Below, one piece after another: positions 590 through 7,151 of a DNA stretch of 64,000 bases. Within the stretch, counting starts at the first letter, position 1. Every line of letters begins with the position of its first letter. The notes under the pieces are model-generated. The model did not search any database and was not told where the DNA came from. It saw nothing but the letters and a program-made list of their open reading frames with translations. The position numbers were made by a program, and so were the translations under genes. Source of the stretch: Vreelandella malpeensis (GTDB lineage Bacteria; Pseudomonadota; Gammaproteobacteria; Pseudomonadales; Halomonadaceae); the NCBI RefSeq assembly GCF_020622355.1, contig NZ_WHVL01000001.1:992001-1056000 (forward strand), read 5' to 3'.

Positions 590-721
590 GACGTTAGTCC
601 CTGAGTGGGCGGCTTCTCGTTGACGTTTTATAGCCGCTGAATGTGGTGTATCCCAGAGGATAGACTAAAACCCAGGTGCCATCTGTATAAAGTTCTGCAC
701 AGCTATTCTTTCCGCGCTCTG

Positions 722-764
722 AATATACAAACTTTGTATAAATATCAATCACTTGAAACGTCAA
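722..764 (-). promoter_or_regulatory. Candidate promoter with a perfect dyad operator
   Basis: On the minus strand TTGACG (764-759) and TATACA (740-735) are separated by 18 bases and point at the 43-residue gene. The -10 lies inside a perfect palindrome, TATACAAAGTTTGTATA (740-724), a plausible regulator site. The element TTGATATTT-A/G-TACA followed by TATATT occurs both here and in the promoter of the upstream small RNA, though here with a 15-base spacing. Confidence 0.4.
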
Positions 765-773
765 TAAAAACGC

Positions 774-803
774 AAAAAAGCCACCCCGGTTTCCCGAGAT
801 GAC
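774..803 (-). terminator. Intrinsic terminator of the GGA-rich RNA
   Basis: Minus strand: a 10-bp stem (803-794 with 789-780, four G-U pairs allowed), GAAA loop, then six T residues (779-774) and a second T-run further on. The orientation shows that the transcript runs on the minus strand. Confidence 0.8.
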
Positions 804-1005
804 TTGTCTGCATCGCCGCCACTCCCTAGCCGTGATGTCGGCGCCACCTTGCGCCGTTGAGAGTGAGCAGGCTAATGTCCTTTGAAATCCATTCCCCTTT
901 GGCTTCCAGCCGTCCTGGTCTACCGCTAGCCTGCTCGAACCGACGGTTAGGTTAATAACGCGATGCGGTGGCTCTTGGTTAAACAACTGCACGATACGAA
1001 CCAAA
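774..1005 (-). ncRNA. Candidate CsrA/RsmA-sequestering small RNA (about 230 nt)
   Basis: The minus strand from about 1005 to 774 has a good sigma-70 promoter at one end and a strong intrinsic terminator at the other, with no convincing ORF. It contains seven GGA triplets, five of them between 878 and 916. Several are displayed in loops: GGCU-GGA-AGCC (911-901), GAA-UGGAU-UUC (894-884), GCUA-GGGAG-UGGC (830-818) and the terminator loop. A 10-bp stem (GAGCAGGCTA 936-927 with TAGCCTGCTC 874-865) closes the GGA-rich domain, and a further hairpin CGGCGC/GCGCCG lies at 856-839. GGA-in-loop repeats are the known recognition element of CsrA/RsmA proteins, which such RNAs titrate. I recognise no specific RsmY/RsmZ/CsrB sequence, so function is inferred from architecture. 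Confidence 0.6.
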
Positions 1006-1011
1006 AACGCT

Positions 1012-1039
1012 AATATATTAAAAAATGTACAAATATCAA
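1012..1039 (-). promoter_or_regulatory. Sigma-70 promoter of the GGA-rich RNA
   Basis: Minus strand TTGATA (1039-1034), 16-base AT-rich spacer, TATATT (1017-1012). The start is expected near 1005. I looked for the GacA-type upstream motif TGTAAG-N6-CTTACA and did not find it; only TCTT-N6-AAGA about 80 bases upstream. Confidence 0.6.
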
Positions 1040-1375
1040 ACACATAATAAAGTTGAGAAAATTTCGAATTCGGGCATTTCTTACCCTCAAGATACGAAAT
1101 GGGTGTGCAAAAATGACACATGCGACATTAGCTCTTTAACGTCATGCCATCTTGGCTCAATGCTTGGCAAAGCCTGATGGAAAGGCTTCAACCTCCTTCG
1201 ACCTTTCGGGAAAGCCCGTTGCTCTGAACTCCTGCTCGTGTGCAGGTCATGCCGGCGCTGGCACCTGCGTGACCGTCGTCAGATTTTATTTACCAAAGCG
1301 CACATTGCTGGCTAAAGTAAGGGCAAGGCCACTCGCGCCTTGCCCGTGATCAACGCTCACTACAGGTACCCACCC
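1040..1375. other. Intergenic region, no gene seen
   Basis: AT-rich to about 1140, then mixed composition. Two inverted repeats are visible: 1242-1268 (GCAGG/CCTGC with an inner TGCC/GGCA) and 1321-1345 (GGGCAAGGC/GCCTTGCCC). Neither has a T-tract on the plus strand. The frames in this stretch lack credible starts and family features. It presumably holds the promoter of the downstream entericidin gene. Confidence 0.5.
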
Positions 1376-1510
1376 ATGAAACGCTCCATCGCTTTGGGTC
1401 TTGCGCTTCTGATGACTCTTTTCCTGGCCACCGGCTGCAATACATTCCAGGGAATGGGCCGCGATATCGAACAGGGCGGCAAGGTCGTTCAGGATGCGGC
1501 AGAGGACTGA
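1376..1510 (+). CDS. Entericidin-type small lipoprotein
   Basis: A 44-residue protein with a basic N-terminus (MKR), a hydrophobic signal segment and the lipobox LATGC (Cys at about residue 21), followed by a short polar mature part, NTFQGMGRDIEQGGKVVQDA. This is the typical entericidin EcnA/EcnB pattern (small outer-envelope lipoproteins linked to stationary-phase toxin-antidote behaviour in E. coli). No paired second entericidin copy is seen here, so a toxin-antidote role is not supported. The TGA stop overlaps the ATG of the next gene (TGATG), so the two are translationally coupled. Confidence 0.85.
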   Translation: MKRSIALGLALLMTLFLATGCNTFQGMGRDIEQGGKVVQDAAED

Positions 1511-2043
1511 TGCTGACCCAGGTATACCTTTCACATGGGCTCGAGAGCGGGCCGGACGCGCTCAAGGTGCAGGCACTCAAGGGGGTAGTGGAGACTCGCG
1601 ACGACTGCGAGGCGGTGCTGATGGACTATCGCGACCAGCCACATGTTGCCGCGCGCCTCGGTCATCTGCTTGCAACGCTCGAAACACGTGGAGACGATCC
1701 CGCCCGCTGTATCATGGCGGGATCGAGCTTGGGCGGTTTCCTGAGCGCAGCGGTGAGCCAGCGTCACCCGGTACTGGGCTGCTTTCTGCTGGCGCCGGCC
1801 CTGGGCATGCCGGACTATCCGGAAACTACCGTTACCCTTCAAGCGCGGCACACCCATATCGTTCACGGTTGGGGCGATGACGTGGTGCCCTGCGGTCCGG
1901 TCATCGAACACGCCAGGCGCCAGCGGCTATCGCTGCGCCTGGTGGACGATGACCATCGCCTGCATGCCAGCCTCGAGGTGATCCTGCGCGACTTCGAGGC
2001 GTTTCTGGATCGCTGCCAGGGCGGTCATCTTCGCCGAACCTAG
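1510..2043 (+). CDS. YqiA-like alpha/beta-hydrolase (esterase)
   Basis: A 177-residue protein with an N-terminal YLSHGLESGP strand-turn and the nucleophile elbow GSSLGG (Ser about residue 73), as in the UPF0227/YqiA family of small esterases. A late GWGDDVVP (acid) and DDDHRLH (His) complete the expected triad. The start overlaps the entericidin stop codon (TGATG), which argues for an operon, and the end overlaps the convergent ntrC stop by 4 bases. The physiological substrate is unknown; the family hydrolyses short-chain esters in vitro. Confidence 0.75.
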   Translation: MLTQVYLSHGLESGPDALKVQALKGVVETRDDCEAVLMDYRDQPHVAARLGHLLATLETRGDDPARCIMAGSSLGGFLSAAVSQRHPVLGCFLLAPALGMPDYPETTVTLQARHTHIVHGWGDDVVPCGPVIEHARRQRLSLRLVDDDHRLHASLEVILRDFEAFLDRCQGGHLRRT

Positions 2044-3470
2044 GCCTCGTCCGCCAGCGCCGGCAGCAGCGTCTTGAGCTTGCGGGTGAGCGTATTGCGC
2101 CCCCACCCCAGCAGTTCGGCAGCCTCTCCCTTGCGCCCTCCAGTATGCTTGAGCGCGGTCTCGATCAGGATGCGCTCGAAATCCGGCACGGCCTCTTCCA
2201 GTAGATGCGTATGGCCTTCGGCCAGGGCGTGGTCCGCCCAGCCGCGAAAGGCGGTGCGCCAGTCGCCATGAGTGCCTTCCGGCGAAGCGCCGAGGGTGCG
2301 CAGTTCCGGCGGCAGGTCCTCGATCAGGATTTCACGCCCCGACGCCATCACCGTCAGCCAGCGGCAGATGTTCTCGAGCTGGCGCACGTTGCCGGGCCAG
2401 GGCAGCTTGGTGAGATGCGTCTCGGCGGCCTGGGTGAGCACCTTGACGTCGGTGGCGAGCTCCTTGGCCGCCTCGGCGAGAAAGTGCCGCGTCAGCCGTG
2501 GAATGTCCTCGCGGCGCTCGGCAAGCCGAGGCAGGTGCACGCGAATGACGTTCAGGCGGTGGAAGAGGTCCTCGCGAAAGCGCCCCTCCGCGACCAGCGA
2601 CTCCAGGTTCTGGTGGGTCGCGGCGATGATGCGCACGTCCACCTTCACCGAAGTGTGCCCGCCCACCCGGTAGAACTCGCCGTCGGCCAGCACGCGCAGC
2701 AGCCGTGTCTGGGTCTCCGCCGGCATGTCGCCGATCTCGTCGAGAAACAGCGTGCCGCCGTTGGCCTGCTCGAAGCGCCCCTGGCGCTGAGCACCGGCCC
2801 CGGTGAAGGCGCCCTTCTCGTGGCCGAACAGTTCGGACTCGATCAGATCGCGGGGAATCGCCGCCATGTTGAGCGCGATGAACGGCTTGCCCGCCCGTGG
2901 GCTGTGCTGGTGAAGCGCCTGGGCGACGCGCTCCTTGCCGGTCCCGGATTCGCCGTTGATCAGCACCGTGATGTGCGAGTGCGACAGCCGGCCGATGGCG
3001 CGAAACACCTCTTGCATGGCCGGCGCCTCGCCGATGATCTCGGCGTTGAGCCCTTCCGGCACGCTGACCGGTCGCTGGCGTTCGCGGGCATGGGCCACCG
3101 CACGGCGCACCAGTGCCAGCGCCTCGTCGACATCGAAGGGCTTGGGCAGGTACTCGAAGGCACCGCCCTGATAGGAGGCCACGGCGCTGTCGAGATCCGA
3201 ATGGGCGGTCATCACGATGACCGGCAGATCCGGATGCGCCTCGCGCACTCGCGACATCAGGTCGAGCCCGTCGATACCCGGCATGCGGATATCGGTCACC
3301 AGCACCTGCGGTGGGTCGCTCAGCAGACGCTCGAGGGCCGTGTCGGCACGCTCGATGCACTCGACCTCGAGATCCGGCTGGGCCAGGGCGCGCTCCAGCA
3401 CCCAGCGAATGGCGCGATCATCGTCGACGATGACCACCCGTGAAACATCGGTTCGTGTCGTCTCGGTCAT
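2040..3470 (-). CDS. ntrC: Nitrogen regulator NtrC, sigma-54 activator
   Basis: A 476-residue response regulator: receiver domain (residues 9-125) with VIVDDD, phosphoacceptor Asp60 in VTDIRMPG, Thr88 and Lys110; AAA+ domain with Walker A GESGTGKE (about 173-180) and the sigma-54 contact loop GAFTGA (220-225); C-terminal Fis-type helix-turn-helix ([22 protein letters not shown]). When phosphorylated by NtrB it drives sigma-54 transcription of nitrogen genes. The start ATG at 3470 was chosen because it forms an ATGA overlap with the ntrB stop and sits exactly at the receiver; the frame stays open upstream but that part lies inside ntrB. Convergent with the yqiA-like gene. Confidence 0.95.
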
Positions 3471-4714: not shown

Positions 4715-4731
4715 TGCACCAAAAAAGTGCA
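4715..4731 (-). promoter_or_regulatory. NtrC-binding site upstream of ntrB
   Basis: TGCACCAAAAAAGTGCA matches the NtrC dyad TGCACCA-N3-TGGTGCA except for two positions of the right arm. It lies between the DUF4124 gene and ntrB. I see no sigma-54 -24/-12 pair with correct spacing next to it, so autoregulation by repression of a sigma-70 promoter, as at E. coli glnL, is the likelier role. Confidence 0.55.
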
Positions 4732-6742: not shown

Positions 6743-6988
6743 ACTGTTCTCCGTCTCCGGTATGAGCGTGGCTTAAAGCGTGTACTGTAAGCGATCGATT
6801 AAACGTAATTGTTGAACAAGACCGTCGATGCGCAGCGAGCGCCTTTGTTGTTCTCTCCGGGCTGTTCTCTCAGGCGGCGCGGGAGGTTGCCAAAGGCCCG
6901 CCCCGGGTCACGCGATGAGTTCGAACCGGCTGTCGTTGTAGCACGCCACCAGGCGTTTGCCTACGGCACCGGCCGCTACCATATATTA

Positions 6989-7134: not shown

Positions 7135-7151
7135 AGCACCAATGTAGTGCA
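7135..7151 (-). promoter_or_regulatory. NtrC enhancer site for glnA
   Basis: AGCACCAATGTAGTGCA differs from TGCACCA-N3-TGGTGCA at two positions. It lies about 165 bases upstream of the predicted start, a normal enhancer distance. A further half site, TGCACCA, is at 7178-7184. Confidence 0.65.

Follow-up and report, generated by a model that had tools for sequence, protein, structure and literature searches.

Csr/Rsm RNAs are typically, but not universally, preceded by a GacA (UvrY/LetA) box. GlmY is described, in the accessible part of its report, as a protein-sequestering small RNA with sigma-54, a two-component activator, IHF and a lipoprotein gene located by the kinase and regulator genes (PMC6075780). 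According to review excerpts, CrcZ antagonizes Hfq-Crc (PMC8657755), and the Pseudomonas RNA NrsZ acts on rhlA. For Erwinia amylovora, the RpoN row of a review table, as excerpted, places rsmB beside hrpL and ihfA (PMC8657755), which counts against the novelty of a sigma-54-linked Csr RNA, and csrB of this organism is described in part of another paper as GacA- and IHF-dependent (PMC5109040). For Halomonas, the excerpted table of a 2020 review lists H. anticariensis with GacS-GacA, with CsrA in brackets and the antagonist RNA given as "Unknown" (PMC7366521); the accessible text of a preprint models CsrA targets in H. hydrothermalis and defers sponge RNAs to future work (PMC12889724); and that of a 2026 review names Halomonas for engineered RNAs only (PMC13414033). 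A literature search whose coverage left out most subscription journals, and whose sources were partly excerpts, returned neither a sigma-54-dependent Csr sponge nor a Halomonas Csr RNA.

The locus described here lies on the minus strand of a 64,000-nt stretch of Vreelandella malpeensis DNA, hereafter the window. It resembles CsrB, CsrC, RsmX, RsmY and RsmZ in being non-coding and intergenic, in ending with an intrinsic terminator, in carrying many GGA triplets in loops and in belonging to a genome with csrA, and the RNA would act by the same mechanism as the CsrB/RsmZ-type sponges. Unlike these RNAs, it has no Rfam match, and a predicted sigma-54 promoter with an enhancer replaces the GacA-controlled promoter. 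With the GlmY/QseE-QseG-QseF system, as partly accessible, it shares a sigma-54 small RNA predicted to sequester a protein, a putative two-component activator, an IHF-like site and a lipoprotein gene. However, GlmY sequesters RapZ and not CsrA, the QseF sites are TGTN12ACA whereas the enhancer here has TGT-N11-ACA, and the two-component genes lie away from the RNA. It is also like CrcZ under CbrAB, an antagonist RNA driven by sigma-54, IHF and an enhancer according to the excerpted report (PMC6296734), and like NrsZ, a sigma-54 RNA near ntrC, with which it is compared by description and not by sequence. Overall, we consider it likely that a response regulator, acting through sigma-54, directs the synthesis of an RNA of about 207 nt that sequesters CsrA/RsmA. 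The features are as follows.

771–977, minus strand: predicted sponge RNA, about 207 nt, with the start at about 977 (12 nt after the GC of the -12 element) and the end just past the terminator.
771–944, minus strand: conserved core (covariance model R1), with a homologous core in 44 loci.
927–936, minus strand: 5′ arm of the long closing helix, GAGCAGGCTA (helix 1, covarying).
865–874, minus strand: 3′ arm of the same helix, TAGCCTGCTC.
901–911, minus strand: hairpin GGCT-GGA-AGCC with GGA in the loop (43 of 44 loci).
839–856, minus strand: hairpin 3, with the loop CAAGGT in the window and GGA in most relatives (38 of 44 loci); two-sided changes in 7 of 8 pairs.
818–830, minus strand: hairpin GCTA-GGGAG-TGGC with GGA in the loop (44 of 44 loci).
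778–805, minus strand: intrinsic terminator stem-loop (12 pairs; helix 6, conserved), followed by a T run.
987–1004, minus strand: putative sigma-54 -24/-12 promoter TTGGTTCGTATCGTGCAG (GG-N10-GC in 44 of 44 loci).
1034–1046, minus strand: IHF-like site TATGTGTTTGATA, read from the sequence, which has one mismatch to the IHF consensus and includes the TTGATA of the earlier note.
1104–1127, minus strand: candidate enhancer (UAS) TGTCGCATGTGTCATTTTTGCACA, 124 bp upstream of the -24 TGG (43 of 44 loci at up to 2 mismatches).
1510–2043, plus strand: UPF0227 esterase-like gene (Pfam PF05728), used as a syntenic marker.
2040–3470, minus strand: ntrC, a context gene (NCBIfam TIGR01818, 743 bits, over the cut-off).

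The earlier note on this DNA had proposed a GGA-rich minus-strand RNA at 774–1005, framed by its own promoter and terminator, as a likely Csr/Rsm sponge. The seven GGA triplets that it counted are present (792–794, 823–825, 878–880, 888–890, 893–895, 905–907 and 913–915), with five of them clustered inside 878–915, and so are the 10-bp stem GAGCAGGCTA/TAGCCTGCTC and the hairpins GGCT-GGA-AGCC and GCTA-GGGAG-TGGC. The terminator with its T6 tail is also where it was placed, although its stem comprises 12 pairs instead of the 10 reported. The minus-strand RNA is retained but its 5′ end is moved: because the conserved sigma-54 box occupies 987–1004, the start is most likely near 977 and not 1005, and 978–1005 belongs to the promoter. 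The fold of 770–1005 is better than all of 200 shuffles (z -3.0). A coding reading of the region (ORF 594–1121, minus strand) was rejected, since no frame is conserved and this one begins ahead of the sigma-54 promoter. With the terminator left out, 27 of the 44 cores are closed by stops in every sense frame, and each of the remaining 17, the window's included, has an open frame that differs among loci. At 469–591 on the minus strand, beside the RNA, an open frame of hydrophobic character (about 43 residues, MAMVLMFVMFILFLGF...) was noted, and a short lipoprotein-like gene at 1376–1510 on the plus strand, which we would liken to entericidin, is divergent from it.

A DNA search of 201 family genomes gave matches in 19. 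Sixteen loci from this search and that of G026 constitute the training set of R1 (alignment A1, n = 17); the matches L018–L020 resembled coding sequence and were excluded before alignment. The covariance search with R1 matched 48 of the 201 genomes, including 43 of the 50 genomes of the window's genus, at 83–193 bits. The core of the window, whose sequence is one of the 17 used for training, scores 148.7 bits (E 2.6e-35) in its own genome. In all 43 R1-positive genomes of the genus, the esterase gene and the RNA share a contig and are no more than 2 kb apart, as determined by comparing the R1 and esterase search coordinates by eye across the 201 genomes. Among the seven genus genomes unmatched by R1, G002 gives a diverged, 35.7-bit match at the syntenic position (L109), and the RNA was not found in the other six. 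L109, with its diverged core and a promoter about 0.8 kb upstream, is outside the 44-locus counts. The element is not universal in the genus, as the enhancer has two or more mismatches or the RNA is absent in at least 5 of the 50 genomes.

The RNA also accompanies the esterase in 30 of 35 esterase-encoding loci named Halomonas, Vreelandella or, in one case, Halovibrio (L160–L194), and in none of the 23 other loci; the named esterase closest to that of the window is from Halomonas sp. S3-1-1 (86%). Outside the genus, weak R1 matches of 23–31 bits occur in 5 of the 151 other family genomes. Four of these were fetched and rescored: L097–L099 fit mainly through the terminator and L100 shows a gapped, partial fit, and none is counted as a homologue. 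The fifth, in G158, covers model positions 140–179 only. A class-wide search of 274 genomes gave weak matches in two besides the window genome (G000).

The earlier note had named compensatory changes in homologues as a check, and they are present. In the training set (n = 17), two-sided changes are seen at 19 of 46 pairs, and 97.4% of the cells pair. When the 44 sequences are aligned to the model, the values are 33 of 46 pairs and 96.0%; this alignment is fitted to the R1 structure. The covariation in the 44 sequences (201 cells) is matched by none of 500 shuffles and lies above every slid control, and each of the 13 modeled pairs of helix 1 shows a two-sided change somewhere among these sequences. 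In a free alignment of 27 held-out sequences, RNAalifold found helices 3 to 6 again, and 13 of the 28 pairs show two-sided changes. It did not recover helices 1 and 2 in these 27 sequences, where the alignment is shifted in one subgroup; when folded singly, every one of the 27 makes 8 or more pairs of helix 1.

The cores of the 44 loci contain 5–9 GGA triplets each, with a mean of 6.7 versus 4.3 in shuffles. In the window alone the count is just moderately high, and that GGA exceeds chance is concluded from its conservation and not from the window's count. Four places in the core hold GGA in 44, 38, 38 and 44 of the 44 sequences, and at a fifth, the loop of the GGC/GCC hairpin, it is kept in 43 of 44 despite a register shift (GGCAGGAAGCC / GGCATGGAGCC). 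A column-based comparison gave 97% for GGA columns against 65% for other unpaired columns, but it is partly circular, as the columns were picked where GGA is common. Therefore, a definition taking one reference sequence at a time was used in its place, with unpaired triplets lacking GG or GA as the comparison. By this definition, an unpaired GGA is kept in 80% of the other 43 sequences and other unpaired triplets in 17%, with GGA ahead for all 44 references (74% versus 19% with the window as reference). The mean unpaired probability is 0.77 for the G residues of GGA and 0.29 for other G residues when the last 42 nt (terminator) are left out, and it is higher for GGA in 44 of 44 sequences. The window's own RNA, in which hairpin 3 lacks GGA, has a smaller advantage (0.57 versus 0.39). 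The commonest contexts are AAGGA, AGGGA and CAGGA, and leader and core together hold 5 to 17 GGA. The leaders of L090, L091 and L095 (231–267 nt) were seen to carry 6–10 extra GGA, making a larger sponge in that subgroup.

Against Rfam, the RNA region is unmatched at the gathering score, and the CsrB, CsrC, RsmX, RsmY and RsmZ models give no match at E up to 10 either; at that limit the best match in 600–1300 is sX12 (21.1 bits against a cut-off of 106). A base-pairing (Hfq-type) or other regulatory RNA, in which the GGA triplets serve another protein or antisense seeds, would be compatible with the modest number of seven GGA in the window and with the conservation of core parts besides GGA. 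We regard this as improbable, as the loop GGA is kept through the register shift while the linkers between GGA loops drift among relatives, and both the L090 group and G002, whose syntenic position holds a stretch even richer in GGA, have many more of them. From these sequence comparisons, the RNA is very probably a CsrA/RsmA sponge. The sponge proposed in the earlier note is supported by synteny, covariation, retention of loop GGA, the terminator, the csrA gene of the window genome and G002, but its promoter has to be replaced.

That promoter, TTGATA-16-TATATT of the sigma-70 type, is a single match where 1.1 ± 1.3 are expected by chance, and it was rejected as a chance-level match within the A/T-rich stretch upstream of the conserved sigma-54 box. 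In contrast, all 44 loci carry a GG-N10-GC element, which begins between 29 and 294 nt upstream of the core. The strict sigma-54 pattern occurs in 39 of 45 rows versus 1.8 expected in shuffles; TGGCG stands in the same context in five further rows, and L109 is the 45th. The RNA is almost certainly driven by a sigma-54 promoter, judging from this conservation.

A GacA-driven sigma-70 Csr RNA of the CsrB/RsmZ kind would follow the precedent of the Csr/Rsm RNAs listed under Gac-type systems in the excerpted review table (PMC7366521). Here it is very hard to sustain. GacA was rejected as activator because no box with up to 3 mismatches lies near the RNA, and the eight such boxes in the 64-kb window compare with 7.1 by chance; the sigma-70 match is at chance level as well. 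In the whole genome, such boxes are not enriched (262 versus 345 in the control, per strand). Moreover, the tandem GacA-like boxes of this genome precede another GGA-rich stretch.

GacA sites with no or one mismatch number six, at five places in the genome: the tandem pair before the GGA-rich stretch, one before GGA hairpins, one in a T6SS region and two that are unremarkable. At the first (L238; G000:C11, 465403–465442, minus strand), the tandem boxes have one mismatch each and are followed by 9 GGA in 218 nt and a strong terminator; this stretch is likely the classical Gac-driven Csr RNA of the window genome. At L241 (G000:C14:135271, minus strand), a box with one mismatch precedes short GGA hairpins, possibly a further small Csr RNA. 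At L237 (G000:C16:55942), a perfect palindromic box lies between hcp-like and tssB-like T6SS genes, the names being read from sequence. Rfam gave nothing over the gathering score at these five loci. Within the window, a GacA-like box with 2 mismatches was noted upstream of glnA at 6786–6803, where such sites are at chance level.

Upstream of the predicted sigma-54 promoter, the enhancer motif TGTCGCATGTGYCA-N6-YACA recurs with no more than 2 mismatches at 43 of the 44 loci, L096 being the exception with 4, and the CA of YACA is found in 43 of 43. The distance from the enhancer start to the -24 TGG is either 112–115 bp (32 loci) or 123–125 bp (12 loci), with none between; these distances are one helical turn apart, and the upstream enhancer is helically phased across the 44 loci. 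All 30 named loci, partly from the same species, fall at 112–115 or 124–125 bp. The exact motif occurs once each in 15 of 34 genomes and lies at the RNA in 14 of these (10 by R1 coordinates, 4 by model search of fetched loci); the RNA was not found in the remaining one, G046, which belongs to another genus. In the window genome, a search at 2 mismatches gave 16 places versus 19 in the control, so that no regulon can be read from it. The stretch between enhancer and promoter is A/T-rich and contains an IHF-like TTAAGTNATTGTTTTTAA in many loci.

The RNA lies downstream of ntrBC on the same strand with a sigma-54 promoter, an arrangement that would also suit an NrsZ-type nitrogen-regulated RNA driven by the neighboring NtrC. 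We consider this very improbable. Near-consensus NtrC sites are found upstream of glnA at 7135 and 7165 (1 and 2 mismatches), whereas NtrC was rejected here because the best site within 1000–1400 has 4 mismatches to TGCACYN5RGTGCA; NtrC is also present in 4 of 6 RNA-negative genomes. Unlike NrsZ, the RNA has no NtrC sites, and two divergent genes separate it from ntrC. Elsewhere in the window, a perfect NtrC-consensus palindrome, TGCACCAAAAAAGTGCA, was observed at 4715–4731 upstream of ntrB.

CbrB was likewise rejected. Its subsites TGTTAC/GTAACA, unlike at CrcZ, are absent from the conserved enhancer and present at a separate CrcZ-like locus of the same genome. This locus (L231 2615–9684, on G000:C12) contains a cbrA-cbrB-like pair, a CrcZ-like stretch, pcnB and folK, and the order cbrA-cbrB, CrcZ, pcnB, folK is the Pseudomonas arrangement. 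The CrcZ-like stretch has a sigma-54 box, AACAAC motifs, TGGCACGCGCAGTGCA and TGTTAC/GTAACA. The assignment to CbrAB-CrcZ is one of likeness, because Pfam detects no named transporter domain in the cbrA-like protein, although kinase and PAS domains are there, and the stretch scores 14.0 bits with Rfam CrcZ, under the cut-off of 95. The accessible text of one report calls CbrAB exclusive to pseudomonads (PMC6296734).

The window genome has 13 matches to PF00158, of which 7 are full enhancer-binding proteins. We clustered 66 enhancer-binding proteins from six of the 43 RNA-positive genomes and the six RNA-negative ones, leaving out G002. One cluster, L221, an NtrC-family two-component regulator, occurs in all six RNA-positive genomes and in none of the six RNA-negative ones, and CbrB-like and DctD-like clusters are present in all 12. 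The six RNA-negative genomes form one group in an unrooted single-gene esterase tree (support 92/84), so that the co-occurrence of L221 and the RNA probably reflects about one evolutionary event and not six. The L221 regulator has Response_reg, Sigma54_activat and HTH_8 domains and is preceded by a HAMP/HisKA kinase; in the window genome, it is located at G000:C11:320569 (kinase and regulator, L233 3191–6053). Unlike QseF/GlrR, it falls under the GlrR cut-off (372 bits against 763).

In all six genomes, the gene next to the L221 kinase and regulator codes for a protein whose start is lipobox-like (LAGC) and is followed by 26–31% Asp+Glu; the acidic lipoprotein of the window genome has no Pfam match. 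CATGTGYCA and a TGG-type box lie upstream of this gene in each of the six, compared with 0.013 of 6 in shuffles. The distance between them, measured as at the RNA, is 113–115 in five genomes but 104, about one helical turn less, in G033. Just this last genome has TGCA as the -12 part, and the other five have TGTA or TGAA. The L233 two-component system is named as activator mainly because the enhancer core recurs at this adjoining gene, which the same system probably also drives. On this sequence evidence, an L221-type response regulator is somewhat favored as the activator of the RNA.

The sponge and its sigma-54 promoter would be unchanged if another enhancer-binding protein, such as L223 or an unrecognized one, were the activator. 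L223, a T6SS-linked regulator, is distributed almost identically, being found in 5 of the 6 RNA-positive genomes and in none of the 6 RNA-negative ones. However, L223 is missing from the RNA-positive G015, and the enhancer core recurs beside the favored two-component system in 6 of 6 genomes; we find a different activator rather unlikely, yet worth keeping in mind.

With the L221-type regulator as the preferred activator, the proposed circuit would run as follows. The kinase would signal to the NtrC-family response regulator, most likely of the L233 system, which would act at the enhancer (1104–1127). DNA bending, probably by IHF, would bring the enhancer to the -24/-12 promoter at 987–1004, and sigma-54 RNA polymerase would synthesize the RNA of about 207 nt, ending at the terminator (778–805). 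The GGA triplets in the hairpin loops and in the open part of the helix-closed domain would bind CsrA dimers, and CsrA-repressed mRNAs would be freed by this sequestration. On a broader reading, for which we see an even chance, the kinase, the regulator and the envelope lipoprotein, together with a dedicated sigma-54 enhancer and the sponge, may form a second, Gac-independent input into Csr, similar to QseEGF-GlmY, and in G002 the sponge may be the 3′ part of a unit encoding a secreted-looking repeat protein.

With this RNA, the Vreelandella part of the group, in which Halomonas bluephagenesis is placed, has a concrete candidate family of Csr RNAs. This species is presented as a production host in an excerpted review (PMC13414033). 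If the circuit is true, CsrA is coupled to sigma-54 and a new two-component system. A Csr sponge under an enhancer-binding protein instead of Gac is now testable, and the covariance model and the candidate binding site are supplied for such tests.

The diverged locus in G002 (L109, reverse strand 850–2060) has a similar promoter architecture before a unit with the small secreted-looking repeat protein. There, a TGGCCTGGTTGATGCT box has a UAS-like sequence with 3 mismatches 126 bp upstream of it, and an IHF-like stretch lies in the interval. Downstream of the promoter come an open frame whose start resembles a signal peptide and, after it, a stretch with up to 12 GGA in 180 nt.
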